Below, piece by piece: positions 1 through 15,784 of a DNA stretch of 64,000 nt. Every line of letters starts with the position of its first letter. Position 1 is the first letter of the stretch. Origin of the DNA: Saccharopolyspora endophytica (GTDB lineage: Bacteria > Actinomycetota > Actinomycetes > Mycobacteriales > Pseudonocardiaceae); the NCBI RefSeq assembly GCF_018070075.1, contig NZ_JAGPXE010000003.1:124001-188000 (forward strand), given 5' to 3'. The position numbers and the translations under genes are program-made. Below the pieces are notes generated by a model. It worked only from the letters and a program-made list of their open reading frames with translations, ran no database searches and was not told the origin of the DNA.

Positions 1-1290
1 CCCGCACAGCACCGCCGAGCTCAGCGACAGCACCGCGGCGAGCGCCAGCGCGACCGGTGCACCCCACGCCGCCAGCGCCACCCAGCCGAGCCCGATGCCG
101 ACCACGCCGCTGACGGCCTTCGCGCTGTAGACCAGCCCGTGCACCTCGATGCTGCGGTGCTGGCCGAAGCACTCCCTGGCCAGCGCGGCGAACAGCGGGT
201 AGAAGGCCCCACCACCGGCTCCGGCGACCGTCGCCCCGGCCACCAGCCACCCGGCGGAGGCCTGCTCGATGCCGATGAGCAGCAGCACCTGGCCTGCGGC
301 CTGCACGGTCACCACCCAGCGCAGCGTCCGGCGGCGGCCGAGGCGGGCGGCGATCGCCATCGCCAGCGTCCGGCCCGCGCCGTTGGTGGCCACGAACAGG
401 GCGATCGCCGCGACCGGGGACAGGGGTGCGGCCAGCAGCGCCAGGAAGGCCGCGTCGAACAGCGAGACCGCCGCCGCGCAGAACAGGCTCGCCGCCATCA
501 CCGCGAGCGCCGGGGTCCGCAGCGCCTCGGTGGCCGAGAACTCCCGCGCGGCGGGCGGGTTCGCCCGCGCCCAGCGGTGGTGGTCGACGTGCGCCGGCCA
601 CCAGTGCCGCGGCGGGTCGGCGATGAGCAGTCCGCACGCGGTGACGGCCACGAGCAGCGCGGGGGCGAAGGCGGTCAGCCCGGCCTCGACGTGCCGGGGT
701 GCCAGGGCGAGGGCGATGACGAACGGGGTGGCGCCGTAGGCGAACGCGCCGGTGACGACGCCGACGCGGGCCGGGGAGTTCTCCGGGAACCACTTCTCGG
801 TGGTGGAGGTGCAGGCGGCGTAGACCAGCCCCGCTCCGATCCCGCCGAGCACGGCGTACCCGGCGGCCACGCCCTGACCGAGGCTGAGAACGCCTGCGGC
901 GCAGAGGAAGCCGCCGGTGATGAGCATCGCCCGAGGTCCGGTCCGGTCGTGCTGGCGCAGGTGGGCGCCGGGCAGTCCGGCGCCGGCCTGCAGCACCGCC
1001 CAGGCGGCCAGGGTCCAGCAGAGTCCGGCCAGGTCGTGCCCGGCGGCGAGCAGTCCGGGGATGGCCGCGCCGAAGGCGTACTGCATGGTTCCTACCAGCA
1101 GCATCGGCAGCCAGCAGGCCCACAGCATCGCCGCGCGGGGCAGGCCGGTGAGCTCGCGCGGTCGCTCGCCGACCCGGTAGCGGCGGCCGTGGTGGTCGCG
1201 CGCCTCCAGGTTCGGCGTGTGCAGTCCGATCATCGCCCACTTCTCGCGCATCGGTGTCACCGTCCGCTCGGCTCGGGTGTTGCTGCTCAC
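1..1290 (-). CDS. OFA-type MFS carboxylate transporter (3' end beyond window)
   Basis: The frame is open from a GTG at 1290 to the left edge (430 codons), so the C-terminus lies outside. The product has repeated hydrophobic helices after a ~45-residue hydrophilic N-terminus. It carries KWFPENSPARVGVVTGAFAY, the KWFP...G loop typical of the oxalate/formate antiporter (OFA) branch of the major facilitator superfamily. Members exchange small carboxylates such as oxalate and formate across the inner membrane. The neighbours (formyl-CoA transferase, ThDP lyase, acyl-CoA ligase) fit uptake of a small acid with formate export. The start is read as GTG AGC AGC; no ATG lies nearer the operator at 1320-1332. 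Family call is fairly sure; the substrate is inferred from context only. Confidence 0.75.
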   Translation of the reverse strand, partial: MSSNTRAERTVTPMREKWAMIGLHTPNLEARDHHGRRYRVGERPRELTGLPRAAMLWACWLPMLLVGTMQYAFGAAIPGLLAAGHDLAGLCWTLAAWAVLQAGAGLPGAHLRQHDRTGPRAMLITGGFLCAAGVLSLGQGVAAGYAVLGGIGAGLVYAACTSTTEKWFPENSPARVGVVTGAFAYGATPFVIALALAPRHVEAGLTAFAPALLVAVTACGLLIADPPRHWWPAHVDHHRWARANPPAAREFSATEALRTPALAVMAASLFCAAAVSLFDAAFLALLAAPLSPVAAIALFVATNGAGRTLAMAIAARLGRRRTLRWVVTVQAAGQVLLLIGIEQASAGWLVAGATVAGAGGGAFYPLFAALARECFGQHRSIEVHGLVYSAKAVSGVVGIGLGWVALAAWGAPVALALAAVLSLSSAVLCG

Positions 1291-1319: not shown

Positions 1320-1332
1320 GCATACTGTATGC
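1320..1332. promoter_or_regulatory. GntR-type operator, perfect palindrome GCATACTGTATGC
   Basis: A perfect 13-bp palindrome lies between the divergent MFS gene (start 1290) and the small ORF at 1362. The same CATACNGTAT core recurs at 8912, 9098 and 12341. It overlaps the likely -10 region for the rightward gene, as expected of a repressor site. Assignment to the GntR protein at 11596-12282 is an inference from site distribution. Confidence 0.6.
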
Positions 1333-1987: not shown

Positions 1988-3484
1988 TCAGCTCACGACC
2001 ACTCCGAAGCGCACCAGGCTGTAGAACAGCATCCCGAGGTAGAACACCGCACCCGCACCGATGATGAGGTTGCTCCACCACTTCGGGCGGATCGGCTTGG
2101 GCAGCATCCTGTTGTTCACCAGCAGCAGCACCACGCAGTAGGCGCCCATCGCGAAGGTGGACAGGAACGCGAGGATGTCCAGGATCGCGCTCGGTCCGTC
2201 GGCCGGGCCGAACAGCAGGATCAGGATCCCGAAGATGATCACGCCCCACAGGAACGCGGCGTAGAGGTGCGACATCCGGAAGCGCTTGGCCCCCGGCACG
2301 AAGTTGTAGGTCATGTCGGCCTGACCCCGGGAGAACGAGTCGAACAGCCCGAGCGTCGCGTTGAGCCCGATCAGGGCGATGAACCCGAGGAACACCGTGC
2401 CCAGCATCGGAGAACCCGCCGAGGAGAAGGCGTCCGACATCGCCGACAGCGCGGCTTCCCGCTCACCGCTCTCGATCAGCGACTTCACGTCGGGGTTCTC
2501 CCGCGAGGCCGACTGCGCCAGCACCGTGAACGAGATCGTCACCAGCATCGTGACGCCCCAGAACAGCAGCAGCGCGTCGAAGGTGACCCAGCGCCGCCAG
2601 CCCTTCCACTTGGCCATCTCGGCCGGGTCCTCGGTGTCGAACATGAACCCGCGCGAGGGCATGACCTCCTCCTCGCCCGCGTGCCTGAGGCCGCGGATGC
2701 GGGGGATGTGCGCGCCCATGCCGGCGCCGGAATCGCGCAGGTGCAGCGTGTACCACATCTGCTGCATGCCCGACGGGCCCGCGAAGGCGATCGCGCCGAC
2801 CACGACCGGGAACCACTCCGGTGACATCGCCGCCTCCGGGAAGTACCCGAAGTGGAACATGCCGGCGATCGTGCTGGTCAGGTCGCCCAGGTTGCCCACC
2901 AGCGAGGCGATGACAGCCGTGCCCACCACCAGCAGGCCGATGAGGATCGACAGCACGTTCTCCAGCAGGCTGTAGATCACCTTGGCCATGGTGAAGATGA
3001 CCCCGACCAGCAGCAGCCCGACGCATCCCGAGATGTACCAGGGGATCCCGGTGATCTGCTCCAGGGCCGCGGCTCCGGCGGAGAGGTGACCGGGCCAGAT
3101 GTAGACGGCCATCGCGGTGATGAAGAAGAACCACATGAGCGGTTTGGCCACGCGAGCCGCACCGGAGAAGATGCTCTCCCCGGTGGCCATCGCGTAGCGG
3201 GCCATCTCCAGCATGACCACGGCCTGCAGCGTGACCCCGATCAGGAACAGCCACCGGATCTCCGGGCCGAAGACCAGCACCAGCCGGGGCCACATGTAGG
3301 ACTCACCCATGCCCACACCGAGCGCGACGAGGAACACGGTGGGGCCGAGCAGGTGGATGGACGGCGGCGCGTCGGGAAGCTTGCGGATGGGCATGGGTTC
3401 CAGCCCACCCGCGCTCCAGACCCGACCGCCGGTTTCTAATACCGGTTCTTGATCGTCTCTCCCAGGCGCCTTGTCAGCGTCCAC
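1988..3484 (-). CDS. Nramp-related transporter lacking the metal-binding motifs
   Basis: The ~498-residue protein has the length, about eleven hydrophobic segments and overall pattern of the Nramp fold. The TM1 region reads LGVGMGESYMWP instead of the DPGN motif, and the TM6 region reads AIAFAGPSGMQQMW instead of MPH, so classical Mn2+/Fe2+ coordination is absent. The GTG start at 3484 is chosen because GGAGG (3491-3495 on the complementary strand) lies 6 nt away. A longer reading frame extends upstream but runs into the dispersed repeat at 3525-3656. The gene is followed after 1 bp by the small membrane gene. A second non-canonical paralogue lies at 35337-36782. The substrate is unknown; the context suggests a metabolite or unusual cation. 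Confidence 0.7.
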   Translation of the reverse strand: MDADKAPGRDDQEPVLETGGRVWSAGGLEPMPIRKLPDAPPSIHLLGPTVFLVALGVGMGESYMWPRLVLVFGPEIRWLFLIGVTLQAVVMLEMARYAMATGESIFSGAARVAKPLMWFFFITAMAVYIWPGHLSAGAAALEQITGIPWYISGCVGLLLVGVIFTMAKVIYSLLENVLSILIGLLVVGTAVIASLVGNLGDLTSTIAGMFHFGYFPEAAMSPEWFPVVVGAIAFAGPSGMQQMWYTLHLRDSGAGMGAHIPRIRGLRHAGEEEVMPSRGFMFDTEDPAEMAKWKGWRRWVTFDALLLFWGVTMLVTISFTVLAQSASRENPDVKSLIESGEREAALSAMSDAFSSAGSPMLGTVFLGFIALIGLNATLGLFDSFSRGQADMTYNFVPGAKRFRMSHLYAAFLWGVIIFGILILLFGPADGPSAILDILAFLSTFAMGAYCVVLLLVNNRMLPKPIRPKWWSNLIIGAGAVFYLGMLFYSLVRFGVVVS

Positions 3485-3709: not shown

Positions 3710-5839
3710 TCAGCCGAGGAGTCCGGCGGAGCGGGCCCAGCGGTACTTCGCGCCCAGCACCGCCACCGGCTTCTCGGTGGTGTAGGGGAAGGCGACGATG
3801 CCGTGGTCGAACAGGTAGTCCGCCGCCTTCTCCACCTCGGTGTCACCCGCCAGCGACACCACGATCGGCTTGTCGATCCCTTCCGCGCGCGCCTCCTCGG
3901 CCACGCGGGAAGCCAGTTCGGCGAACACCATCGGAGGAGTGACGATGGTGTGCCAGTACCCCAGGATCAGCGAGTGGATCCGCGGATCCCGCAACCCGAG
4001 CCGGATGGTGGCCTCGTAGGTGCTCGGCGGCTCACCACCGGTGATGTCGACCGGGTTGCCCGCCGCTCCGAACGGCGGGATGTAGCGCCGGAACTCCGCG
4101 TCGAGGTCCGGCGGGATGTCCATGAGGTCGAGACCGTTGGCCACGCAGGCGTCCGACAGCAGCACACCCGACCCGCCGGCACCGGTGATGATCACGACGT
4201 TCTCGCCCTGAGGCGTGGGCAGCACCGGGAGGCCGCGCGCGTACTCCAGCATCTCGTTGAGCCCGGGAGCCCGCACCACGCCCGAGTGGCGCAGGATGTC
4301 GTCGTAGACCTTGTCGTTGCCCGCCAGCGCCCCGGTGTGCGAACTGGCCGCTCGCGCGCCCATGTCGGTGCGACCGGCCTTGAGCACCACCACGGGCTTC
4401 TTCTTCGTGATGCTCTTGGCGGCCCGCACGAACGCCCGCCCGTCCTTGAGGTCTTCCAGGTGCATGGCCACGACATTGGTGTTGTCGTCGTGCTCGAAGA
4501 ACGTCAGCAGGTCGTCCTCGTCCACGTCGGACTTGTTGCCCAGCCCGACGATCGCCGACACACCCATCTTCGTGGTGCGCGAGAAGCCCAGGATGGCCAT
4601 CCCGATGCCGCCGCTCTGCGAGGTCAGCGCCACCCCGCCGCGCACGTCGTAGGGGGTGCAGAACGTCGCGCACAGGTTCTGCGGGGTGTAGTAGTAGCCG
4701 TAGATGTTGGGGCCCAGCAGCCGGATGCCGTGCTTGCGGGCGACCGCCACGACCTCCTCCTGCAGCTCGTGGTTGCCGGTCTCGGCGAAGCCGGAGGGGA
4801 TCAGCACCGCCGCCGCGACGCCCTTCGCGCCGCACTCCTCCAGCGCCGAGGCCACGAACTTCGCGGGCACCGTGAACACCGCGACGTCCACCTCGCCCGG
4901 CACCTCGGTGATGCTCTTGTGCGCCTTGCGGCCCATGATCTCGTCGGCCTTGGGGTTGATCGGGTGGATCTCGCCCGCGTACCCGCCGTTGATCAGGTTC
5001 TTCATCACCGAGTTGCCGATCTTGCCCTCCTCGTTGGAGGCCCCGATCACCGCGATGCTGCTCGGCGTCATCAGCCGCCGCATCGACTCCAGGATCTCCT
5101 CCTGGGAGCGCTGCGGAGCCTCGGCGGGCTCCTCGGTCTGCAGCACGATCCGCACGTCGGCCGCCGTGGCGCCCGACGGTGTCGCGAAGACCGGGTTGAG
5201 GTCCAGCTCGGCGATCTCCGGGAAGTCGCCGACCAGCTCGGAGACCCTGCGCAGCACCTCCGAGAGCGCTTCGGCGTCAACCGGGTCCGCGCCGCGCGCA
5301 CCGCGCAGCACCTCGGCCGCGGCGATGTCGTCGAGCATCGCCCTGGCCTCCCCGGCGCTCAGCGGAGCCAGCCGGAACGTGACGTCGGAGAGCACCTCCA
5401 CCAGCACCCCGCCGAGCCCGAAGGCCACGACCTTGCCGAAGGTGGGGTCGGTGGTGGCCCCGACGATGACCTCCTGGCCGCTGACCATCTGCTGCACCTG
5501 CACCCCGGCGATCGCGGGGTTCTCGACGTGGGCGTGGGCGTTGGCCAGGATCTGCCGGTAACCGGCCCGCACGTCGTCCTCGCCGCTGACGTCGACCAGC
5601 ACGCAGCCGGCGTCGGTCTTGTGCAGGATGTCCGGGGAGACGATCTTCAACGCCACCGGGCCGCCGAACTCGGCCGCCAGCGCGACCGCCTCGTCGGCGC
5701 TGGTGGCCAGGCCCTCACCGGCGGTGGGGATGCCGTAGGCGTCGCACAGCTGCTTGGCTTCGGGCGCGGTCAGCGCCGCCCGGCCCTCGGACCGCACCGC
5801 GTCGAGCACCTCCCGCACGCGGGCACCGTCGTATGCCAC
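3710..5839 (-). CDS. ADP-forming acyl-CoA (acetate--CoA) ligase, fused subunits
   Basis: The 709-residue protein carries an ATP-grasp half first (about 1-230, with SPDILHKTDAG, His73). A CoA-binding Rossmann domain follows (about 255-350, VIGASNEEGKIGNSVMKN), then the succinyl-CoA-ligase-like domain with the phosphohistidine motif SSHTGALAG (His501). Enzymes of this type make acyl-CoA from a carboxylate, CoA and ATP, releasing ADP and phosphate. The GTG start at 5839 follows the upstream stop (5841-5843) by one base, so it is coupled to the formyl-CoA transferase gene. In this operon it would supply the first acyl-CoA that primes CoA transfer. Family assignment is firm; substrate identity is not visible. 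Confidence 0.85.
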   Translation of the reverse strand: MAYDGARVREVLDAVRSEGRAALTAPEAKQLCDAYGIPTAGEGLATSADEAVALAAEFGGPVALKIVSPDILHKTDAGCVLVDVSGEDDVRAGYRQILANAHAHVENPAIAGVQVQQMVSGQEVIVGATTDPTFGKVVAFGLGGVLVEVLSDVTFRLAPLSAGEARAMLDDIAAAEVLRGARGADPVDAEALSEVLRRVSELVGDFPEIAELDLNPVFATPSGATAADVRIVLQTEEPAEAPQRSQEEILESMRRLMTPSSIAVIGASNEEGKIGNSVMKNLINGGYAGEIHPINPKADEIMGRKAHKSITEVPGEVDVAVFTVPAKFVASALEECGAKGVAAAVLIPSGFAETGNHELQEEVVAVARKHGIRLLGPNIYGYYYTPQNLCATFCTPYDVRGGVALTSQSGGIGMAILGFSRTTKMGVSAIVGLGNKSDVDEDDLLTFFEHDDNTNVVAMHLEDLKDGRAFVRAAKSITKKKPVVVLKAGRTDMGARAASSHTGALAGNDKVYDDILRHSGVVRAPGLNEMLEYARGLPVLPTPQGENVVIITGAGGSGVLLSDACVANGLDLMDIPPDLDAEFRRYIPPFGAAGNPVDITGGEPPSTYEATIRLGLRDPRIHSLILGYWHTIVTPPMVFAELASRVAEEARAEGIDKPIVVSLAGDTEVEKAADYLFDHGIVAFPYTTEKPVAVLGAKYRWARSAGLLG

Positions 5840-5840
5840 T

Positions 5841-7067
5841 TCAGATCACTCCGTTCGCCTTGAGCTCGGCCAGTTCGGACTCGTCGATGCCCAGCCGGTC
5901 CCGGAAGACCTCGGCGGTGTGCTCGCCGAGCAGGGGGGAGCGCTGGACGTCGACGGGGGAGTCGGAGAGCTTGATCGGGCAGCCGACCGTCTTGAACTCA
6001 CCGCGCTCCGGGTGATCGACGCTGACGATCATGTCGTTGTCGGCCAGCGAGGCGTCCTCGATGATCTCCTTGGTCGACAGGATCGGACCGCAGGGCACGT
6101 TGTGCTCGTTGAGCGCGGCCAGCACGGTCCACTTGTCGTGACCGAGCGTCCACTCCTCGATCAGGCTGAACATCTTGTCCAGCTTGGACAGACGAGCTTC
6201 CGGCGTGGCCCAGTCGGGATCGTCGATCAGCTCGGGCCTGCCGATGAGCTTCGCGATCGGTGCCCAGCCCTGCGGCTGCACGATGACGTAGATGTAGTCG
6301 TTGTCGCCGCCCGGCTTGCAGCGCACCGCCCAGCCCGGCTGACCGCCGCCGGAGGCGTTGCCCGAGCGCGGGACCTCGTCGCCGAAGTCGGCGTTGGGGT
6401 ACTCGCGCAGCGGGCCGTGCGCCAGCCGCTGCTGGTCGCGCAGCTTCACCCGGCACAGGTTGAGCACCGCGTGCTGCATCGCCACCGACACGCGCTGGCC
6501 GGCCCCGGTGCGCTCGCGCTGCAGCAGCGCGGCGAGGATCCCGGCCACCGTGTGGATCCCGGTCCCGGAGTCGCCGATCTGGGCTCCGGTGGCCATCGGT
6601 GGGCCGTCCTCGAAACCGGTGGTGGACATCGAACCGCCCATGGCCTGGGCGACCACCTCGTAGGCCTTGAAGTGCGTGTAAGGCCCGTCGCCGAAACCCT
6701 TGATGGAGGCGTAGATCAGCTTCGGGTTGATCTCGCGCAGCTTCTCCCAGGTGAAGCCCATGCGGTCCACGGTCCCGGGGCCGAAGTTCTCCACCAGCAC
6801 GTCGGATTCGGCGACGAGCCGGGTGAAGATCTCCTTGCCCGCGTCGGACTTCATGTTCAGCGTGATGCTGCGCTTGTTGCAGTTGAGCATCGTGAAGTAG
6901 AGGCTGTCGGCGTCGGCGACGTCGCGCAGCTGCTTGCGGGTGATGTCGCCGGTGGGTGCCTCCAGCTTGACCACGTCGGCCCCGAGCCAGGCCAGGATCT
7001 GCGTCGCGGACGGTCCGGACTGGACGTGCGTCATGTCCAGGACGCGCACGCCTTCCAATGCACTCAT
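5841..7067 (-). CDS. frc: Formyl-CoA transferase family protein (class III CoA transferase)
   Basis: The 408-residue product is a CaiB/BaiF-type CoA transferase that aligns closely by eye with Oxalobacter formyl-CoA transferase. It keeps [11 protein letters not shown] (Gln16), [14 protein letters not shown], the catalytic Asp166 in IGDSGTG, and the glycine loop [11 protein letters not shown]. Such enzymes move CoA from formyl-CoA to an incoming carboxylate, releasing formate, via aspartyl-CoA intermediates. Trp48 of the Oxalobacter enzyme is Gln46 here, so substrate choice may differ. ATG 7067 is preferred over GTG 7076 because AGAGGTG sits 6 nt before it. It lies between the lyase and the ADP-forming ligase genes in one operon. 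Confidence 0.88.
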
Positions 7068-7160
7068 GACTGGCACCTCTTTGCTCCTGAAGCGGCGAAG
7101 CCGCTCGGTCGACTCTCGCTACTGGCACCTCAACGCGAAAAAGGGCTCCGGGAAGGGGTC

Positions 7161-8861
7161 TCACTTGTACATGGTCTGGTTCATCGTTCCCGGGGCGTAG
7201 ACCTCGGGATCGACCCAGACGTTGATCAGCGACGGCTTGCCGGACTCGCGCGCGCGTTGCAGCGCGGGGGCGATGTCGGCGGGGTCGTGGACCTCTTCGC
7301 CGTAGCCGCCGAGCATCTGCGCGAACTTGCTGTAGGGGATGTCGCCGAGGGTGTTGCCGACCCGGCCGCGGTCCTCGCCGTACTTGGCGACCTGGCCGTA
7401 GCGGATCTGGTTCATCGAGGAGTTGTTGCCGACGATGCCCACGAAGGGCAGGTCGAAGCGCACCATCGTCTCGAAGTCCCAGCCGGTGAGGCTGAACGCG
7501 CCGTCGCCGAACAGGCACACCACTTCCTTGTCGGGGCAGGCCTTCTTGGCGGCCATGGCGAACGGCACGCCGACGCCGAGGGTTCCCAGCGGCCCGGGGT
7601 CCATCCAGTGGCCGGGGGCCTTGGGCTGGATGACCTGTCCGGAGAAGGTGACGATGTCGCCGCCGTCGCCGATGTAGATGGAGTCCTCGGTGAGGAACTC
7701 GTTGATCTCGTGCACCAGCCGGTAGGGGTCGATGGGGGAGGAGTCGGAGTGCTGGCGCGGGAGGCGCTTGGTCAGCGCGGCGCTCTCGACCTCGCGCAGT
7801 TCCTGCACCCACGCCCTGCGCCCGCTGGCGCCGTTGTCGGTGCGCCCGGACGCGGCCTGCGACAGGGCGGTGAGCACCGCGTCGGCGTCGCCGACGATGC
7901 CCAGGTCGACGTCGCGGTTGCGGCCGACCGTGCGGTAGTCCAGGTCGATCTGCACGACCGTCGCCTCGGGGGAGAGGCGCTTGCCGTAGCCCATCCGGAA
8001 GTCGAACGGCGTGCCGAGGATGATGATCAGGTCGGAGTTCTGGAAGGCGTAGCGGCGCGCGAGCTGGAAGTGCAGCGGGTCCCCGGGCGGGAGCGTGCCG
8101 CGTCCGGCGCCGTTGCAGAACGCGGGGACGTTGAGCTCGCGGACCAGCTTGACCGCCGAGTCGGTGGCCCGGCAGGTCCAGGTCTGGCTTCCCAGCAGGA
8201 TGCAGGGCTTCTCGGCCTTGACCAGCAGGTCGGCGAGCTTCTGCACCGCGTCGGGATCACCCGCCGAGCGGGTGGTGGCCCGGTATCCGCCGGCCTGCGG
8301 GATGCGGGCCTTGTCCACCGGGACCTTGGCGTCGAGCACGTCGCGCGGGATCTCCAGGAACGACGGGCCGGGCGAGCCGTGGAAGCACTCGCGGAAGGCC
8401 ATCGAGACCATGTCGGCGGCGCGTTCGGTGTGCGGCACGGTGGCGGCGAACTTGGTGATCGGGTTCATCATGTCCACGTGCGGCAGGTCCTGCAGCGAGC
8501 CCATCTTGTGCTGCGACAGCGCGCCCTGGCCGCCGATGAGCAGCATCGGGCTCTCCGCGCGGAAGGCGTTGGCCACGCCGGTGACCGCGTCGGTGGTGCC
8601 GGGACCCGCGGTGACCACCGCGCAGCCGGGCTTGCCGGTGATGCGGGAGTAGCCGTCGGCGGCGTGGGCGGCGACCTGCTCGTGGCGCACGTCGATGACG
8701 TCGATGCCCTCGTCGACGCAGCCGTCGTAGATGTCGATGATGTGGCCACCGCAGAGGGTGAAGATCGTGTCCACGCCTTCGGCTTTGAGCGCCTTGGCGA
8801 CGAGGTGACCGCCGGAGATCTGATCGGGTTCGCCTGCGTTGTCGGGTGCCGTCTGGGCCAT
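7161..8861 (-). CDS. ThDP-dependent lyase, probable 2-hydroxyacyl-CoA lyase (oxalyl-CoA decarboxylase relative)
   Basis: The 566-residue protein has all three ThDP-enzyme domains: a PYR domain with catalytic Glu61 (VRHEQVAAHA), a central Rossmann domain, and a PP domain with GDGAFSLT...GNN for ThDP/Mg binding. Oxalyl-CoA decarboxylases have GDYEE at the substrate loop. Here the loop is GSLQDLPHVD (Leu123, Gln124), resembling GAFQEFPQV of human HACL1. Lyases of that type split 2-hydroxyacyl-CoA into an aldehyde or ketone plus formyl-CoA; an actinobacterial one acts on 2-hydroxyisobutyryl-CoA in Actinomycetospora. The adjacent formyl-CoA transferase would use the product. Start ATG 8861 has GGGGA upstream. 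It is the first gene of the leftward operon, behind the operator at 8912. Oxalyl-CoA decarboxylase or an acetolactate-synthase-like role remain possible. Confidence 0.75.
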   Translation of the reverse strand: MAQTAPDNAGEPDQISGGHLVAKALKAEGVDTIFTLCGGHIIDIYDGCVDEGIDVIDVRHEQVAAHAADGYSRITGKPGCAVVTAGPGTTDAVTGVANAFRAESPMLLIGGQGALSQHKMGSLQDLPHVDMMNPITKFAATVPHTERAADMVSMAFRECFHGSPGPSFLEIPRDVLDAKVPVDKARIPQAGGYRATTRSAGDPDAVQKLADLLVKAEKPCILLGSQTWTCRATDSAVKLVRELNVPAFCNGAGRGTLPPGDPLHFQLARRYAFQNSDLIIILGTPFDFRMGYGKRLSPEATVVQIDLDYRTVGRNRDVDLGIVGDADAVLTALSQAASGRTDNGASGRRAWVQELREVESAALTKRLPRQHSDSSPIDPYRLVHEINEFLTEDSIYIGDGGDIVTFSGQVIQPKAPGHWMDPGPLGTLGVGVPFAMAAKKACPDKEVVCLFGDGAFSLTGWDFETMVRFDLPFVGIVGNNSSMNQIRYGQVAKYGEDRGRVGNTLGDIPYSKFAQMLGGYGEEVHDPADIAPALQRARESGKPSLINVWVDPEVYAPGTMNQTMYK

Positions 8862-8911
8862 CAGCGCTCATCCCCTTGTGTGAACACGCGTCTGCGGTCG
8901 TCTCCATACTG

Positions 8912-8922
8912 CATACCGTATG
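8912..8922. promoter_or_regulatory. GntR-type operator CATACCGTATG upstream of the lyase operon
   Basis: A perfect 11-bp palindrome sits 50 bp before the lyase start, with an overlapping extra half site CATACTGCAT at 8905-8914. It matches the core seen at 1320, 9098 and 12341. Confidence 0.6.
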
Positions 8923-9097: not shown

Positions 9098-9108
9098 CAT
9101 ACTGTATA
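9098..9108. promoter_or_regulatory. GntR-type operator CATACTGTATA upstream of the reductase gene
   Basis: This near-palindrome (one mismatch) lies 52 bp before the GTG at 9161. Together with the site at 8912 it gives each side of the 299-bp divergent promoter region its own operator copy. Confidence 0.55.
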
Positions 9109-9160
9109 CTGAATGCACCGACACCTGCGCCTGGCCGCAAGACCAGAGCGGAGATCGATT

Positions 9161-10168
9161 GTGAGAGTCGCTGTTGTCGGCGCCGGTGCCATCGGCGCGT
9201 ACGTGGGTGCCTGCCTGCATCGGGCGGGAGCGGACGTGAGCCTGCTGGCTCGTGGGGACAACCTGGCCGCGCTGCGCGCCGACGGCGTGCGGGTGCTCAG
9301 CCCCCGCGGGGACTTCCAGGCCACGCCCCACGCCACCGACGATCCGGCTGAGATCGGCGCGGTCGACCACGTCGTCCTCGGCCTGAAGGCATATTCCTAC
9401 GCCACCTGCGGACCACTGGTCCACCCCCTGCTCAAGGAGGACACCACGATCATCGCCGCGCAGAACGGAATTCCGTGGTGGTACTTCCACGGACTGCGCG
9501 GCCCCTTCGAAGGCCACCGCATCGACACCGTCGACCCCGGTGGCGCCGTCAGCCGGGTCCTGCCGCCACGCCGCGCCATCGGCTGCGTGGTCTACGCCGC
9601 CACCGAACTCGACGCCCCCGGAGTGGTGCGGCACAGGGAGGGGACCCGCTTCTCCATCGGCGAACCCGACGGCACCGCTTCCGGGCGCTGCCGCGAGTTC
9701 AGCGACGCCATGATCGCCGGCGGGCTGAAGTGCCCGGTCGAGGACGACATCCGCCGCGACATCTGGATCAAGCTGATGGGCAACGTCGCCTTCAACCCGA
9801 TCAGCGCGCTCACCGGAGCCACCCTCGCCGGGATGTGCCGCCACTCGGGCGTGCGGGCGCTCGTGGCCGCGATGATGCGCGAATCGCTGGAGATCGCCGC
9901 CGCGCTCGGCTGCTCTCCTGACATCGCCATCGACCGGCGTCTGGCCGGAGCCGAACGCACCGGTGACCACAAGACCTCGACCCTGCAGGACCTGGAGAGG
10001 GGAAAACCCCTGGAACTGGAGGCGATGCTCACCGCGGTCGTCGAACTTGCCGACCTGGTGGGTGCCGAAGCCCCCACGTTGCGCACCGTCAACGCACTCG
10101 GTGACCTGCTCGGTCAGCGGCTCGCGCCCGGCGAGCCCGCGACGGCCGGGCGCATCCCACGGGAGTGA
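9161..10168 (+). CDS. Ketopantoate reductase (ApbA/PanE) family oxidoreductase
   Basis: The ~335-residue protein starts with a dinucleotide-binding Rossmann motif VAVVGAGAIGAYVGA and has the family's C-terminal helical domain with IKLMGNVAFNPISALTGAT. Family members reduce 2-oxo acids to 2-hydroxy acids with NADPH; PanE itself makes pantoate. The GTG start at 9161 has GGAG (9150-9153) 7 nt before it. The upstream in-frame ATG at 9113 lies on the operator and has no ribosome site. Divergence from a 2-hydroxyacyl-CoA lyase-like gene under the same operator suggests a catabolic role interconverting 2-oxo and 2-hydroxy acids rather than pantothenate synthesis. That role is inferred. Confidence 0.8.
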   Translation: MRVAVVGAGAIGAYVGACLHRAGADVSLLARGDNLAALRADGVRVLSPRGDFQATPHATDDPAEIGAVDHVVLGLKAYSYATCGPLVHPLLKEDTTIIAAQNGIPWWYFHGLRGPFEGHRIDTVDPGGAVSRVLPPRRAIGCVVYAATELDAPGVVRHREGTRFSIGEPDGTASGRCREFSDAMIAGGLKCPVEDDIRRDIWIKLMGNVAFNPISALTGATLAGMCRHSGVRALVAAMMRESLEIAAALGCSPDIAIDRRLAGAERTGDHKTSTLQDLERGKPLELEAMLTAVVELADLVGAEAPTLRTVNALGDLLGQRLAPGEPATAGRIPRE

Positions 10169-10170
10169 GC

Positions 10171-10242
10171 ATGTCCGACCGCAGCAGCACCCGGGCCCGC
10201 CGCGCGCTCGTCGCGGCGGGCCCGGCCAGGGGTCCGCGATGA
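10171..10242 (+). CDS. Possible 23-residue ORF coupled to the acyl-CoA dehydrogenase gene
   Basis: ATG 10171 begins 2 bp after the reductase stop and ends in a TGA overlapping the ATG at 10239 (ATGA). It fills the gap between the two genes exactly. The peptide is Arg/Ala-rich and unrecognised. It may only serve to carry ribosomes across, or be a chance frame. Confidence 0.2.
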   Translation: MSDRSSTRARRALVAAGPARGPR

Positions 10243-11357
10243 CGGCCCGCAACCACCGCGACGCGCTCGACCGCGTCCTGCGCAGGACCATCGAGCCGCG
10301 AGCTCGCGACACCGACGGTGCAGGACGGTTCCCGCGCGAGAACGTCGACGCGCTCGGTCGGTCCGGTCTGCTCGGCCTGACCCTGCCCACCCGGCACGGC
10401 GGCTGCGGCCGCGGCCTCGGCGAAGCCGTCGAGGTCACCGACCGGGTCGCCCGAGTCTGCGGATCCACCGCCGCGGTGCTGGCCGCCCACTACGCGGCCA
10501 CGGCGGTGCTGACCCGCCACGCCGATCCCGAACTGCTGCGCGCGATCGCCACCGGCCGCCACCTCAGCACCCTGGCGGTGGCCGAGACCGGGAATCCCGG
10601 ACTGGTCCCGGCAGGGCGGGCGGAATCGCGCGGGGGAGTGGTCGCCCTGTCGGCCCGCAAGAACTGGGTCGTCTCGGCCGGTGAAGCCGACAGCTACGTC
10701 TGGACCGGACCGCCCACCGGGCCGCGCAGCGGCCTGTCGCTGTGGCTGATCCCGGCCGAAGCGCCCGGCCTGTGCGTTCCCGCATCGGCCGACGCGGTGG
10801 GGCTGCGCGGCAGCGCCACCGCGACCATCACCGCGGACCCGGTCCTGGTCCCCACCTCCGCCGCGATCGGCGGCGACGGGGCCGCGCAGGAGCTGATGGA
10901 GGTGATCCTGCCCTGGCTGTGCGCCCTGCAGGCCGCGCTCGCGCTCGGCCTGATGCGGGCGGTGCTCGCTCGCGGCGTCGAGTGCGTGACCGGCCCGCAG
11001 CCGTCCTGGTCCCGCTGGCAGGCCCCGCCCGCCGAGCAACCCGAGGTCAGGGCCGATCTGGCCCGGATGCGGACGAAGGTGGACACCGCCGAGCTGGTGC
11101 TCGCCGACGCCGTCCACCACGGCTGGCACCCCGACGGTCTGCAACGACTGCTGCAGGCCCGCGCGCTCAGCGGCGAGAACGCCGTCCAGGTCGCCGAACT
11201 CGGCATCAAGGTGTGCGGTCAGCACGCGTTCCGCCAGGACTACGGCGTCGAACGCCGCTTCAGAGATGCCCACACCGCGGCCCACGGTCAGTTCGCGGTG
11301 GATCAAGCCCTGGACCACCTGGGCAGAATCGCCTGCGGGAAGCCGCTTTTGGCCTAG
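10239..11357 (+). CDS. Acyl-CoA dehydrogenase family protein
   Basis: The 372-residue protein follows the acyl-CoA dehydrogenase plan. It has an N-terminal helical domain (about 1-110, GLLGLTLPTRHGGCG), a middle beta domain with the substrate/flavin segment VAETGNPGLVPAGRAE, and a C-terminal helical domain with QVAELGIKVCGQHAF. Members oxidise acyl-CoA with FAD, while some relatives are flavin monooxygenases. It lies directly after the reductase gene and shares its promoter, then ends at a hairpin terminator. ATG 10239 fits the domain start; reading further upstream enters the previous gene. Exact substrate is not visible. It would act on an acyl-CoA made in the same pathway. Confidence 0.75.
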   Translation: MTARNHRDALDRVLRRTIEPRARDTDGAGRFPRENVDALGRSGLLGLTLPTRHGGCGRGLGEAVEVTDRVARVCGSTAAVLAAHYAATAVLTRHADPELLRAIATGRHLSTLAVAETGNPGLVPAGRAESRGGVVALSARKNWVVSAGEADSYVWTGPPTGPRSGLSLWLIPAEAPGLCVPASADAVGLRGSATATITADPVLVPTSAAIGGDGAAQELMEVILPWLCALQAALALGLMRAVLARGVECVTGPQPSWSRWQAPPAEQPEVRADLARMRTKVDTAELVLADAVHHGWHPDGLQRLLQARALSGENAVQVAELGIKVCGQHAFRQDYGVERRFRDAHTAAHGQFAVDQALDHLGRIACGKPLLA

Positions 11358-11595: not shown

Positions 11596-12282
11596 CTAGT
11601 CCTCGGTGCTCTGATCGAGGTAGCTCTTGCGGGTGTGCTCGGTGTGCTCGCGCATGAGGTTCGACGCGGTGTCGCCGTCCTTCTTGGCGATGGCGTCGAT
11701 GAGCGCGGAGTGCTCGTCCCAGGCCTGCTTGCCGCGGCTCTTGGCGACGGGCGTGTGGTACCAGCGGACCCGGCGGTTGATCTGCGCGGCGAGTTCGTTG
11801 AGGACCTTGTTGCCGGACATCTCGGTGATCTTGGCGTGCAGCTCGGCGTTGGCGGCCACGACCGCTTCGACGTCGTCGGCCTTGAGCGCGGCGAGACCGG
11901 ACTTGTAGATCCGCTTGAGCTCGGCGACGCCGTCCTTGGTGGAGTTCAGCGCCGCCAGCCGGGCGGATTCGGCTTCCAGCAGGGTTCGCACACCGAGGAG
12001 CTGATCGGCCTCCTCCGGGGTGGGGCTGTGGACGAAGGCGCCGTAACCCGGGCGCAGGTCGACCCACTCGTCCTTCTGCAGCCACTGGAGGGCTTCGCGG
12101 ACGGGCTGGCGGGAGACGCCGAGCGCCTCGGCCAGTTCCTTCTCGACCAGGTGCTGGCCGGGCTTGAGCTCACCGGTGATGATCAGTTCGAGGATGGCCT
12201 CGTAGACCGTCTCGCGCAGCGGTACCGGGCGCGCCACCTGGCGGGTGGCGATGCCCTCGGACAGCTTCGAGGTCAGCGACAT
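11596..12282 (-). CDS. GntR family regulator, FCD subgroup; likely local repressor
   Basis: The 228-residue protein has an N-terminal winged helix (about 20-90, VYEAILELIITGELKPGQHL, then LAEALGVSRQPVREALQWL). A C-terminal all-helical FCD ligand domain follows, with Asp/His-type metal or acid binding residues (ELHAKITE and a later DEHSALIDAI). Regulators of this group sense carboxylates or CoA esters and usually repress. Its own promoter holds a copy of the CATACNGTAT operator (12341), as do three promoters of the neighbouring acid-catabolism genes, so autoregulation and control of the 1-11 kb genes is the simplest reading. Start ATG 12282. The effector is unknown. Confidence 0.85.
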   Translation of the reverse strand: MSLTSKLSEGIATRQVARPVPLRETVYEAILELIITGELKPGQHLVEKELAEALGVSRQPVREALQWLQKDEWVDLRPGYGAFVHSPTPEEADQLLGVRTLLEAESARLAALNSTKDGVAELKRIYKSGLAALKADDVEAVVAANAELHAKITEMSGNKVLNELAAQINRRVRWYHTPVAKSRGKQAWDEHSALIDAIAKKDGDTASNLMREHTEHTRKSYLDQSTED

Positions 12283-12334: not shown

Positions 12335-12340
12335 TTTTAG

Positions 12341-12351
12341 CATACAGTATT
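12341..12351. promoter_or_regulatory. GntR-type operator CATACAGTATT upstream of gntR
   Basis: Fourth copy of the CATACNGTAT core, 59 bp before the gntR start. It implies autoregulation. Confidence 0.55.
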
Positions 12352-13347: not shown

Positions 13348-14727
13348 ATGAGCCCTTCGCTGATCAGCCGGGCGGGAGGCGCCTTGAGCACCGGGACGCA
13401 GCACACGACAGGTTTCTTCCACGGCCGCACCATCGACGAGCTCGGCGAGCAGCTGCGCCGCGATGAGCTGCGCGCCGTCGACCTCGCCACCGCCGCGCTC
13501 GCCGCGGTCGACGCGCTCGACGGCGAGCTGAACGCCGTGGTCACCCTCGACCGCGACGGCGCGCTGCGCGCGGCGGAGAAGGCCGACGCCGAGCTGTCCG
13601 ACGGCCTCGACCGCGGCGCGCTGCACGGCATTCCGGTGGCGGTCAAGGACATCATCGACGTGGCCGGGTTGCGCACCACCATGGGCTCGGCGCACTTCGC
13701 CGACCACGTGTCCACATCGGACGCCGAGTGCGTGCGGCGGTTGCGGGAGGCCGGGGCGGTGATCATCGGCAAGACCACCACGCACGAGTTCGCCTTCGGC
13801 CCCACCGGGGACCGCGCCCACAACGGGCCCTCGCGCAACCCGCACGATCGCGGGCGGATGACCGGCGGCTCCAGCGGCGGTAGCGGCGCGGCGGTCGCCG
13901 CCGGGATGGTGCCGCTGGCGCTGGGCACCGACACCGGTGGTTCGGTGCGCATCCCGGCATCGCTGTGCGGGGTCGCCGGTTTCAAACCCGCCCACGGCGC
14001 GATTCCCACCGACGGCGTGTTCCCGCTGTCGCAGACCCTCGACCACGTCGGCGTGCTCGCGGGCACCACCGCCGACTGCCGGCTGGCCTACCGGGTGCTG
14101 GCCGGGCTGCGGCCGATGCCCAGCCGCGAGCGCGGTTCCGAGGTGTCCCTCGGCTGGATCCCGCCGGACCTGCTGCACCCCACCGACCCCCGGGTCACCG
14201 GCGTCGCGCGGACTGCGCTCGACGTCGACGGGATCGACGTGCGGGAAGTCCGGCCGAGCGGGCTGGAGGGGATGCTGCGAGCCTTCGGCGCGATCCAGTT
14301 CAGCGAGGCCCACGCCGTGCACGCCGAGCGCATCGCCGACGCGCCGCAGCTGTTCACCGACGACGTCCTGGCGATCCTGCGGCTGGCCGGTGAGACCGCG
14401 GGTTGGCAGTACGTGCGGGCGCTCGGTGAGCGCGACGACTGGCGCGCCGAGGTCGCCGGGCTGCTCGACGAGGTCGAGCTGCTGGCCATGCCCACCACCT
14501 GCGTCACCGCGCCCGAGATCGACCAGCGCGAGATCGAGGTCAACGGCACGGCAACGCCGGTGCGCGGCCCGCTGATCGGGCTGACCCGGCCCTGGAACCT
14601 CGCCGGAGCCCCGGCGATCTCGGTGCCCGCCGGAACGGTGGACGGGCTCCCGGTCGGCCTGCAGCTGGTCGGCCGACCGGGACAGGAGGACCGGCTGTTC
14701 GCCGTCGCCGCCCGACTCAGCCGTTGA
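13348..14727 (+). CDS. Amidase signature family hydrolase
   Basis: The 459-residue protein contains the full Ser-cisSer-Lys triad: Lys100 (PVAVKDIID), Ser175 in TGGSSGGSG and Ser199 in GTDTGGSVRIPAS. The spacing (75 and 24 residues) matches the family. Such enzymes hydrolyse amides to a carboxylate and ammonia; GatA-like roles are unlikely because no gatB or gatC is near. An alternative TTG start at 13384 has a closer GGGAGG; I keep ATG 13348. Its last 11 bp overlap the convergent dehydrogenase gene. In this setting it could release an acid that feeds the neighbouring acyl-CoA enzymes, which is speculative. Confidence 0.85.
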   Translation: MSPSLISRAGGALSTGTQHTTGFFHGRTIDELGEQLRRDELRAVDLATAALAAVDALDGELNAVVTLDRDGALRAAEKADAELSDGLDRGALHGIPVAVKDIIDVAGLRTTMGSAHFADHVSTSDAECVRRLREAGAVIIGKTTTHEFAFGPTGDRAHNGPSRNPHDRGRMTGGSSGGSGAAVAAGMVPLALGTDTGGSVRIPASLCGVAGFKPAHGAIPTDGVFPLSQTLDHVGVLAGTTADCRLAYRVLAGLRPMPSRERGSEVSLGWIPPDLLHPTDPRVTGVARTALDVDGIDVREVRPSGLEGMLRAFGAIQFSEAHAVHAERIADAPQLFTDDVLAILRLAGETAGWQYVRALGERDDWRAEVAGLLDEVELLAMPTTCVTAPEIDQREIEVNGTATPVRGPLIGLTRPWNLAGAPAISVPAGTVDGLPVGLQLVGRPGQEDRLFAVAARLSR

Positions 14728-15784
14728 TCGCCTCGGCGATCGCCTTGCCGAGGTCCTCGGTCGTGGCGGTGCCGCCCAGGTCCGGGGTGCGCGGGGCGGT
14801 GGGGTCGCCGAGCACCTGCTCGATCGCGGCCACCACGTCCGCGCCCGCCTCGGTCAGGCCCAGGTGGTCGAGCATCATGCCGACCGACCAGATCTGGCCG
14901 ATCGGGTTGGCGATGCCCTTGCCCGCGATGTCCGGCGCCGAGCCGTGCACCGGCTCGAACGTCGACGGGTAGCGACCCTCCGGGTTGATGTTGCCCGAGG
15001 GAGCGACGCCGATCGTGCCGGTCACGCCCGGACCGAGGTCGGAGAGGATGTCGCCGAAGAGGTTGCTGGCCACCACCACGTCGAAGCGCTCCGGGGTCAT
15101 CACGAACCGCGCGCACAGGATGTCGATGTGGTCCTGGTCCACGCGGATCTCCGGGTACTCCTGGGAGATCTCGGCGAACCGCTCGTCCCAGAACGGCATC
15201 GAGTAGTAGATCCCGTTGGACTTCGTCGCCGAGGTCACGTGCGGTTTCCCGAGCTTGCGGGCCAGGTCGAAGGCGTAGCGCATGATCCGGTCGGTGCCGA
15301 AGCGGGTGAACGACGCGGTCTGCAGCACCGTCTCGCGGTCGGTTCCCTCGTTCTGGCGGCCGCCGAGCTTCGAGTACTCGCCCTCGGTGTTCTCCCGCAC
15401 CACCCAGAAGTCGATGTCGCCGGGCTGCTTGTCGCGCACCGGAGGCGTCACCCCGGGCAGCAGGCGCACCGGGCGCAGGTTGACGTACTGGTCGAACACC
15501 CGGCGGATCGGGATCAGCAGCCCCCACAGCGAGATGTGGTCCGGAACGCCCGGGTAGCCGACCGCGCCCAGCAGGATCGAGTGGTGGTCGCGCAGCCGGT
15601 CGAGGCCGTCCTCGGGCATCATCCGCCCGGTCTTGCGGTAGGTCTCGCAGCTCCAGTCGAAGTGGCGGTGGTCGAACCGCACGCCGTACTTCGCGCCGAT
15701 CACGTCCAGCACGCGCAGCGCTTCGGGCATGACCTCGTTGCCGATGCCGTCGCCGGGCAACACCGCGATCTCGTACTTCTGCAT
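14717..15784 (-). CDS. Tartrate/D-malate-type beta-decarboxylating dehydrogenase
   Basis: The 355-residue protein belongs to the isocitrate/isopropylmalate dehydrogenase family (AVLPGDGIGNEV at the N-terminus; VVRENTEGEYS; SNLFGDILSDLGPGVTGTIG; TFEPVHGSAPDIAGKGIANP). The loop LLIPIRRVFDQYVNLRP and WVVRENTEGEYSKLGG resemble tartrate and D-malate dehydrogenases rather than LeuB. These enzymes oxidise and decarboxylate (hydroxy)malates with NAD+ and a divalent metal. The ATG at 15784 is used, with a GTG 6 bp upstream as an alternative. The gene diverges from the PHP gene. It adds another 2-hydroxyacid-oxidising activity to the island. Confidence 0.85.
   Translation of the reverse strand: MQKYEIAVLPGDGIGNEVMPEALRVLDVIGAKYGVRFDHRHFDWSCETYRKTGRMMPEDGLDRLRDHHSILLGAVGYPGVPDHISLWGLLIPIRRVFDQYVNLRPVRLLPGVTPPVRDKQPGDIDFWVVRENTEGEYSKLGGRQNEGTDRETVLQTASFTRFGTDRIMRYAFDLARKLGKPHVTSATKSNGIYYSMPFWDERFAEISQEYPEIRVDQDHIDILCARFVMTPERFDVVVASNLFGDILSDLGPGVTGTIGVAPSGNINPEGRYPSTFEPVHGSAPDIAGKGIANPIGQIWSVGMMLDHLGLTEAGADVVAAIEQVLGDPTAPRTPDLGGTATTEDLGKAIAEAING

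Follow-up and report, generated by a model that had tools for sequence, protein, structure and literature searches.

What does a thiamine diphosphate (ThDP)-dependent enzyme do in an operon that also encodes a coenzyme A (CoA)-transferase and a CoA ligase? The question is raised by a 64,000-nucleotide stretch of Saccharopolyspora endophytica DNA (contig NZ_JAGPXE010000003.1, positions 124,001 to 188,000; "the window" below), in which three intact open reading frames (ORFs) follow one another on the minus strand. They correspond to a 566-amino-acid protein with ThDP-enzyme domains (7161-8861), here called the lyase; a predicted formyl-CoA:oxalate CoA-transferase, Frc, of 408 amino acids (5841-7067); and an ADP-forming ligase of 709 amino acids (3710-5839), whose start is separated from the frc stop by a single base. 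An earlier interpretation made from the letters alone (the sequence-only reading) had correctly recognized this leftward operon and its three gene products, and had assigned them to a CoA cycle for a 2-hydroxyacid. We think it very probable that the locus instead serves oxalate degradation and assimilation, as a variant of the oxalate/formate cycle in which the decarboxylase was separately derived and a ligase is built in. The cycle itself is well known; what would be new is the variant.

The operon and its proposed cycle

The lyase is proposed to be a non-canonical oxalyl-CoA decarboxylase. It would close the cycle by converting oxalyl-CoA to formyl-CoA and CO2, and would thereby do the job of canonical oxalyl-CoA decarboxylase (Oxc) after arising separately in the ThDP superfamily. 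The ligase, a putative oxalate- or formate-CoA ligase, would make the starting CoA ester. Thioesters would be conserved in such a cycle only as long as oxalate undergoes decarboxylation alone; every oxalyl-CoA that a reductase converts to glyoxylate for biomass would drain one thioester, so the ligase would be required for assimilation, to replace what is lost, as well as for starting. A net ATP gain through the ligase was rejected on stoichiometric grounds, as oxalate would have to be activated once more for each formyl-CoA used to make ATP. We infer every substrate and reaction direction at this locus, and what speaks for oxalate is Frc, genomic context, operators and mutual exclusion with Oxc, rather than the lyase active site. 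From the CoA cycle of the sequence-only reading we retain the recharging by formyl-CoA and the first ester supplied by the ligase, and give up the 2-hydroxyacid substrate and the carbon-carbon lyase; plain oxalate degradation, the outcome that reading had set against its own, is what the evidence favours. Priming by a ligase also makes sense for oxalate, since engineered Escherichia coli carrying oxlT, oxdC and frc began to consume oxalate only once an oxalyl-CoA synthetase had been supplied (PMC8899768).

The ligase carries ATP-grasp_5, CoA-binding, Succ_CoA_lig and Ligase_CoA_2 domains, as expected of a fused ADP-forming acyl-CoA synthetase. Its residues His73 and His501, which we take to be catalytic, are invariant in all 81 sequences, and its context suggests that it activates oxalate or formate. 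The transferase is assigned as formyl-CoA:oxalate CoA-transferase by a curated model (TIGR03253, 663 bits, above the cut-off of 504) and by its key residues, and the solved protein that it matches best is E. coli YfdW (493 bits). Residues Q17, D169, G259 and G260 are kept in 83 of 83 Frc sequences (80 relatives plus three from proteobacteria), the glycine loop being numbered on what we take to be the GGGG motif of E. coli Frc; the residue ahead of G259 is Ser, not Gly, in the same 83. These four positions are among the key Frc residues listed in the accessible part of PMC10192776.

The arrangement is conserved. Among the best 80 of at least 595 stretches (at least 587 relatives) from a contig scan, all from close relatives, lyase, frc and ligase occur together in the same order and on the same strand in 80 of 80, and the gene set is therefore not a chance association. 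The sequence-only reading had suggested a co-occurrence survey of this kind. Median gaps between matched ends are 26 and 16 bases. The host genome (7.17 Mb in 34 contigs, 99.5% complete) encodes a lyase 98 and 96% identical to those of the nearest named relatives of the host, Saccharopolyspora.

More distant copies reside on plasmids. Five of 23 plasmid records (E up to 1e-60) are proteobacterial, with 66-68% identity to the lyase, and three more are actinobacterial at 81-84%, after which the next match drops to 37%. In Phyllobacterium (locus L130) the lyase, frc and ligase are accompanied by OxlT (601 bits, cut-off 335), a relative of the reductase described below, and a regulator annotated as BhcR (L130:15196-16026); BhcR is linked to glyoxylate assimilation. 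Cupriavidus metallidurans (L129) and Caballeronia (L131) loci hold lyase, frc, ligase and reductase, and also a gene that shares 50-59% identity with annotated OxlT.

Lyase and canonical Oxc across genomes

We surveyed Frc, Oxc and the lyase in a class sample of 216 genomes and a genus sample of 151 (the genus of G204), some genomes belonging to both, and scored the best few candidates per genome. Frc was detected in 19 genomes of the class sample, Oxc in nine and the lyase in 14. Among the 19 with Frc, 14 have the lyase and five canonical Oxc, none having both or neither, and Frc is present in all 14 lyase genomes. The corresponding counts for the genus sample are 75 for Frc, 11 for Oxc and 66 for the lyase; 64 of the 75 Frc genomes have only the lyase, nine only Oxc, two both and none neither, and all 66 lyase genomes contain Frc. 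Because Frc genomes have the lyase or Oxc but rarely both, and the lyase always accompanies Frc, the lyase appears to behave like a replacement for Oxc. In the window's own genome no Oxc exceeds the cut-off, and of its proteins the lyase matches the Oxc model best. The two genomes with both enzymes, G240 (4% contamination) and G314, have a separate frc for each, and G240 additionally holds another Oxc (L128). Canonical Oxc without an Frc above the cut-off is seen in four genomes from the order to which the window belongs (G057, G070, G149 and G158).

The loci examined contain two kinds of frc, one YfdW-like (71-75% identical to that of E. coli) and one like the window's. The YfdW-like kind stands beside canonical Oxc in 13 loci, and a ligase match above 100 bits was found in none of these 13, several of whose stretches end early. 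Fifteen frc genes of the window's kind have no adjoining lyase. They belong to nine genomes (G086, G187, G236, G252, G296, G297, G325, G340 and G341), all of which lack the lyase and have canonical Oxc. The ligase adjoins four of these 15 (L107, L109, L120 and L121), and one locus, L120 of G297, combines Oxc, ligase and the window's kind of frc. Two of the three proteobacterial frc genes (L130 and L131) fall on the YfdW side of the Frc tree, so the lyase has been paired with more than one frc lineage.

If the proposed function is correct, 66 of the 75 frc-bearing genomes of the genus sample use the lyase and only 11 canonical Oxc, and a survey based on counting oxc would overlook the majority. 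The lyase gene is annotated as 'thiamine pyrophosphate-binding protein' in the annotated records seen. The available parts of two OXC surveys (PMC7190790, PMC10192776) place actinobacterial OXCs in sets in which the canonical residues are retained with few exceptions, and oxalotrophic Streptomyces have been reported, the gene for the decarboxylase step not being named in the passages at hand (PMC11347878). In the titles and abstract openings found, no description of this lyase family as an oxalyl-CoA decarboxylase appears, most subscription journals lying outside the search.

Placement and active site of the lyase

The lyase does not fall into a curated family. Of 51 NCBIfam models matched, 25 were among the matches listed, and the lyase is below the curated cut-off of each of these. 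It reaches 362 bits with the model for 2-hydroxyacyl-CoA lyase (HACL; NF058623, cut-off 600) and 246 with the canonical Oxc model (TIGR03254, cut-off 739.4). Its best score, 500 bits, is with PRK05858, a model named for acetolactate synthase (cut-off 587), as might be seen if an acetolactate-synthase-like enzyme resided in the operon for an unrelated reason. However, the lyase always occurs with Frc (66 of 66 and 14 of 14 genomes) and is complementary to Oxc, and we regard this explanation as scarcely credible. A plain acetolactate synthase identity was discarded on the same constant pairing with Frc.

Several observations weigh against an oxalate role. The best solved relatives of the lyase are 2-hydroxyacyl-CoA lyases (AcHACL, 276 bits; ApbHACS, 272; then benzaldehyde lyase, 229), while solved Oxc proteins score 218 (Methylobacterium extorquens), 194 (E. 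coli) and 178 bits (Oxalobacter formigenes). The Oxc residues that hold oxalyl-CoA (Y120, E121, Y483 and S553) are gone: in P0001 and nine other aligned lyases, I34, Y120, E121, Y483 and S553 of Oxc correspond to G, L, Q, N and G, and R555 to M or K. The surveyed genomes are related, so the exclusion counts are not independent draws, and the Fisher p values among Frc genomes (8.6e-5 for the class, 4.4e-10 for the genus) must be read with this in mind. Independent exchanges of lyase and Oxc are few, because on the Frc tree (a quick method with 68 rows, including frc from 34 of the 80 loci) the lyase label requires three changes and the lyase-less state two. A sixteenth frc of the window's kind (L136, 67% identical to the window's and beside a reductase relative) has no lyase in view before the contig end, its genome, G321, having the full operon elsewhere. 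Finally, the carriers do not favour oxalate by their scores. The major facilitator superfamily (MFS) carrier of the window (1-1251, minus strand), which runs off the window edge and whose start was placed downstream of an operator in an ORF open to 1362, scores 113 bits with the L-lactate MFS model (cut-off 320), 101 with TIGR00890 (375) and 83 with TIGR04259 (335), and its best solved relative is OxlT (8hpj) at 49 bits. The carrier of S. fungicidicus is likewise below all cut-offs (136 bits with TIGR04259, cut-off 335; 171.7 with the L-lactate and 171.6 with the OFA model). Of the OFA-type carrier that the sequence-only reading had placed near the operon, the carrier stands, and its OFA character is weak.

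Phylogeny separates the lyase from Oxc. Oxc and HACL1-type enzymes are nearer to each other than to the lyase family, for E. coli Oxc reaches 441 bits against a HACL1-type enzyme but 177 against AcHACL. In our trees Oxc groups with TbHACS (100/100) and the lyase family forms its own group (100/100). An approximately unbiased (AU) test of 10 lyases, seven Oxc and five other rows (one HACL1-type, AcHACL and three paralogs) rejects lyase plus Oxc as one clade apart from the other five (p-AU 4.5e-5), this grouping having been named only after the first tree had been viewed; the own-genome paralogs L091, L092 and L095 were left out. A canonical Oxc identity was accordingly dropped, given the score below cut-off, the missing substrate residues and this clade test.

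The kinship with HACLs invites the model of the sequence-only reading, in which activation of a 2-hydroxyacid is followed by its cleavage into formyl-CoA and an aldehyde or ketone, with Frc recharging the next 2-hydroxyacid. Trees weakly join the lyase family with AcHACL (91/87 and 84/81, with a long-branch warning), the substrate-binding Gln of AcHACL (Q128) is kept as Q124 in 84 of 84 lyases, and the carriers score equally with L-lactate and OFA models. However, the position of the AcHACL acid/base E493, fixed from solved E493A and E493S entries that differ just there, is Ile486 in 84 of 84 lyases. E493 mutants of AcHACL lose much of their activity, E493A retaining about a tenth, in the accessible part of PMC8760513, from which the roles of E493, Q128, Y120, E121, Y483 and S553 are also taken. 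The HACL score is also well short of its cut-off. The large C-terminal lid of AcHACL is absent from the lyase, which ends nine residues past the aligned part, whereas the AcHACL chain continues for 41 residues, purification tag included. A HACL-type assignment was reasonable from the closest solved relatives; given the loss of E493, we set it aside as an identity while retaining it as a rival. Together with the oxalate-type Frc, the mutual exclusion with Oxc and an OxlT above cut-off in the Phyllobacterium locus, the Ile at E493 leads us to favour oxalate, and the 2-hydroxyacyl-CoA lyase model is disfavoured and improbable.

An AlphaFold model of the lyase (22 sequences, 82-96% identical to the first; mean pLDDT 70) is of medium confidence and gives the general fold only; we draw no residue geometry from it. 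A search with this model returned AcHACL first by E-value and M. extorquens Oxc at rank 33, with TM-scores of 0.82 and 0.83. The model also has a low-confidence predicted helix where AcHACL has its catalytic helix, a feature that would suit the 2-hydroxyacid model.

The ThDP-activating Glu of Oxc (E56) is kept as E61 in 84 of 84 lyases. In plant enzymes that have been reported to be oxalyl-CoA decarboxylases, Phe-Gln takes the place of the Tyr-Glu of Oxc and Tyr 483 is kept (PMC9090294), so a Gln at the E121 position is no bar to such activity. That the active site is unlike that of Oxc would also suit an enzyme that both decarboxylates and ligates, condensing the formyl carbanion from oxalyl-CoA with glyoxylate or another aldehyde; related ThDP enzymes, including engineered Oxc, run formyl-CoA condensations (PMC8760513, PMC11271303, both as partly available). 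However, no conserved gene for a subsequent step was found, tartrate dehydrogenase occurring in just two of 80 relatives, and the reductase offers an ordinary assimilation route. We therefore rate this possibility as very unlikely; were it true, the lyase would define a new class of oxalyl-CoA enzyme, with direct C3 building from oxalate in soil actinomycetes, a prospect that we hold to be equally slight.

The favoured oxalate cycle has parallels in four known systems. It resembles the Oxc-Frc-OxlT cycle of O. formigenes, and frc and oxc of E. coli, in its Frc, in the role of its ThDP decarboxylase, in the conversion of oxalate to formate and CO2, and in the OFA-type carriers of many relatives of the locus; it differs in a decarboxylase that belongs to a separate branch of the superfamily of ThDP enzymes and in the ADP-forming ligase inside the operon. 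With the actinobacterial 2-hydroxyisobutyryl-CoA lyase cluster (AcHACL of Actinomycetospora, as described in the accessible part of PMC7176365) it shares a distantly related ThDP enzyme, an adjoining CoA ligase, a GntR regulator and a formyl-CoA product, but its lyase lacks E493 and has a shorter C-terminus, an oxalate-type Frc is present, and its ligase is a 709-amino-acid ADP-forming enzyme rather than the 465-amino-acid HCL. A ketopantoate-reductase-like gene near frc and a decarboxylase gene is also found with PanE2 of M. extorquens and ApbA2 of Cupriavidus necator (PMC7486775, in part), to which the reductase of the locus is likened by its PanE/ApbA domains, a similar function being presumed. 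The engineered E. coli strain SYNB8802 (scaaE3-oxdC-frc plus oxlT) combines ligase, decarboxylase, Frc and carrier as a working oxalate module for which the ligase is required, though it is synthetic and uses a yeast oxalyl-CoA synthetase with the O. formigenes decarboxylase (PMC8899768, sections available). If the proposal is true, the locus is a natural counterpart of this ligase-primed module, a widespread variant of the oxalate cycle, and a second evolutionary route to oxalyl-CoA decarboxylation whose different active site could be useful for one-carbon chemistry.

Operators and neighbouring genes

An 11-base sequence, ATACTGTATAC, occurs four times in the window with at most one mismatch, and not at all in 100 shuffles. 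These four copies, all at the oxalate locus, are the only ones in the whole 7.17-Mb genome, in which a reversed-pattern control has one match. They precede the MFS carrier (1322-1332, plus strand), the lyase operon (8906-8916, plus), the reductase gene (9099-9109, plus) and gntR (12340-12350, minus). A GntR-family regulator (11596-12282, minus strand; 50 of 80 relatives) would bind these sites, and would thereby control the operon, the reductase, the carrier and its own gene. A looser pattern, ATAC-N(1-4)-RTAY, lies within 300 bases ahead of the lyase match in nine of 13 relatives, which were hand-picked and considered without a shuffle control. The sequence-only reading had proposed an operator shared by the operon, the reductase and an acyl-CoA dehydrogenase. 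The first two do carry it, as do gntR and the carrier, and the acyl-CoA dehydrogenase-like gene (10239-11357, plus strand, start inferred) lies behind the reductase gene and is probably not part of the core.

The ketopantoate-reductase-like protein (9161-10168, plus strand, start inferred), encoded divergently from the lyase with gntR farther along, has PanE/ApbA domains and is perhaps an oxalyl-CoA reductase of the PanE2/ApbA2 type. Because the genome has another PanE-like gene over the cut-off (C12:200603-201466), the protein of the locus need not serve pantothenate. In two of the 13 loci with canonical oxc-frc (L111 and L112), relatives of it are encoded at distances of 3.1 and 0.7 kb from that pair, and a relative in Azospirillum (51% identity) is separated by one gene (about 1.2 kb) from oxlT and by 6 kb from gcl. 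In C. necator, according to the part available of PMC7486775, ApbA2 is 51% identical to PanE2 and is encoded close to frc-oxc; its deletion slows growth on oxalate, from which it was taken to be a CoA-acylating glyoxylate dehydrogenase, and deletion of frc-oxc abolishes such growth.

Candidate later steps are a Gcl-like gene and molybdopterin oxidoreductases elsewhere in the host genome. The Gcl-like gene (L091) groups with annotated Gcl (100/100). Within the 80 loci, a Gcl search gave matches in all 80, of which 78 are the lyase itself at 25-28% identity, and a Gcl-like gene (53%) is present only in L021 and L065. One molybdopterin oxidoreductase frame (G000:C23:391573-393270) has a single internal TGA on the same contig, and is possibly a selenocysteine formate dehydrogenase.

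Directly downstream of the ligase, and before the MFS carrier, are an Nramp-like membrane transporter (1988-3394, minus strand; start inferred, ORF open to 3601), which the sequence-only reading does not mention, with 469 bits against NF037982 (cut-off 50), and a small membrane-like protein without a Pfam match (1576-1986, minus). Counted at more than 35% identity and half coverage anywhere in a stretch, and as lower bounds since many stretches end at contig ends, neighbours shared with the 80 relatives are GntR (50), the reductase (44), the Nramp-like gene (42), the small membrane protein (42) and an OFA-like carrier (37). Within 1.5 kb after the ligase, the Nramp-like gene is found in 42 and an OFA-type carrier in 32, never both; two loci have neither and four end too soon. 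The OFA-type carrier thus takes the operon place of the Nramp-like gene, in Streptomyces and some other relatives. Where Nramps that carry metal show the motifs DPGN and MPH, 43 Nramp-like sequences show GMGE (or close variants) and GPSGMQ, so the substrate of this transporter may be oxalate and not metal. A solved relative of it was not found at E up to 0.001.

Rarer neighbours are the acyl-CoA dehydrogenase (three of 80 relatives), an amidase (two) and tartrate dehydrogenase (two), which on these counts were rejected as core genes. The tartrate dehydrogenase of the window (14717-15778, minus strand) scores 537 bits against a cut-off of 470, and is near the operon in only two close relatives. 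An aldehyde dehydrogenase-like gene without an assigned NCBIfam family (L133:5159-6700 and relatives) occurs close to the lyase in 24 of the 80 loci. The surroundings of the lyase also include another ADP-forming CoA ligase, of the SucCD type (L133:6765-8791 and relatives), with SucC-like genes in 49 and SucD-like genes in 36 of the 80 loci, and it recurs in the proteobacterial loci L129-L131.

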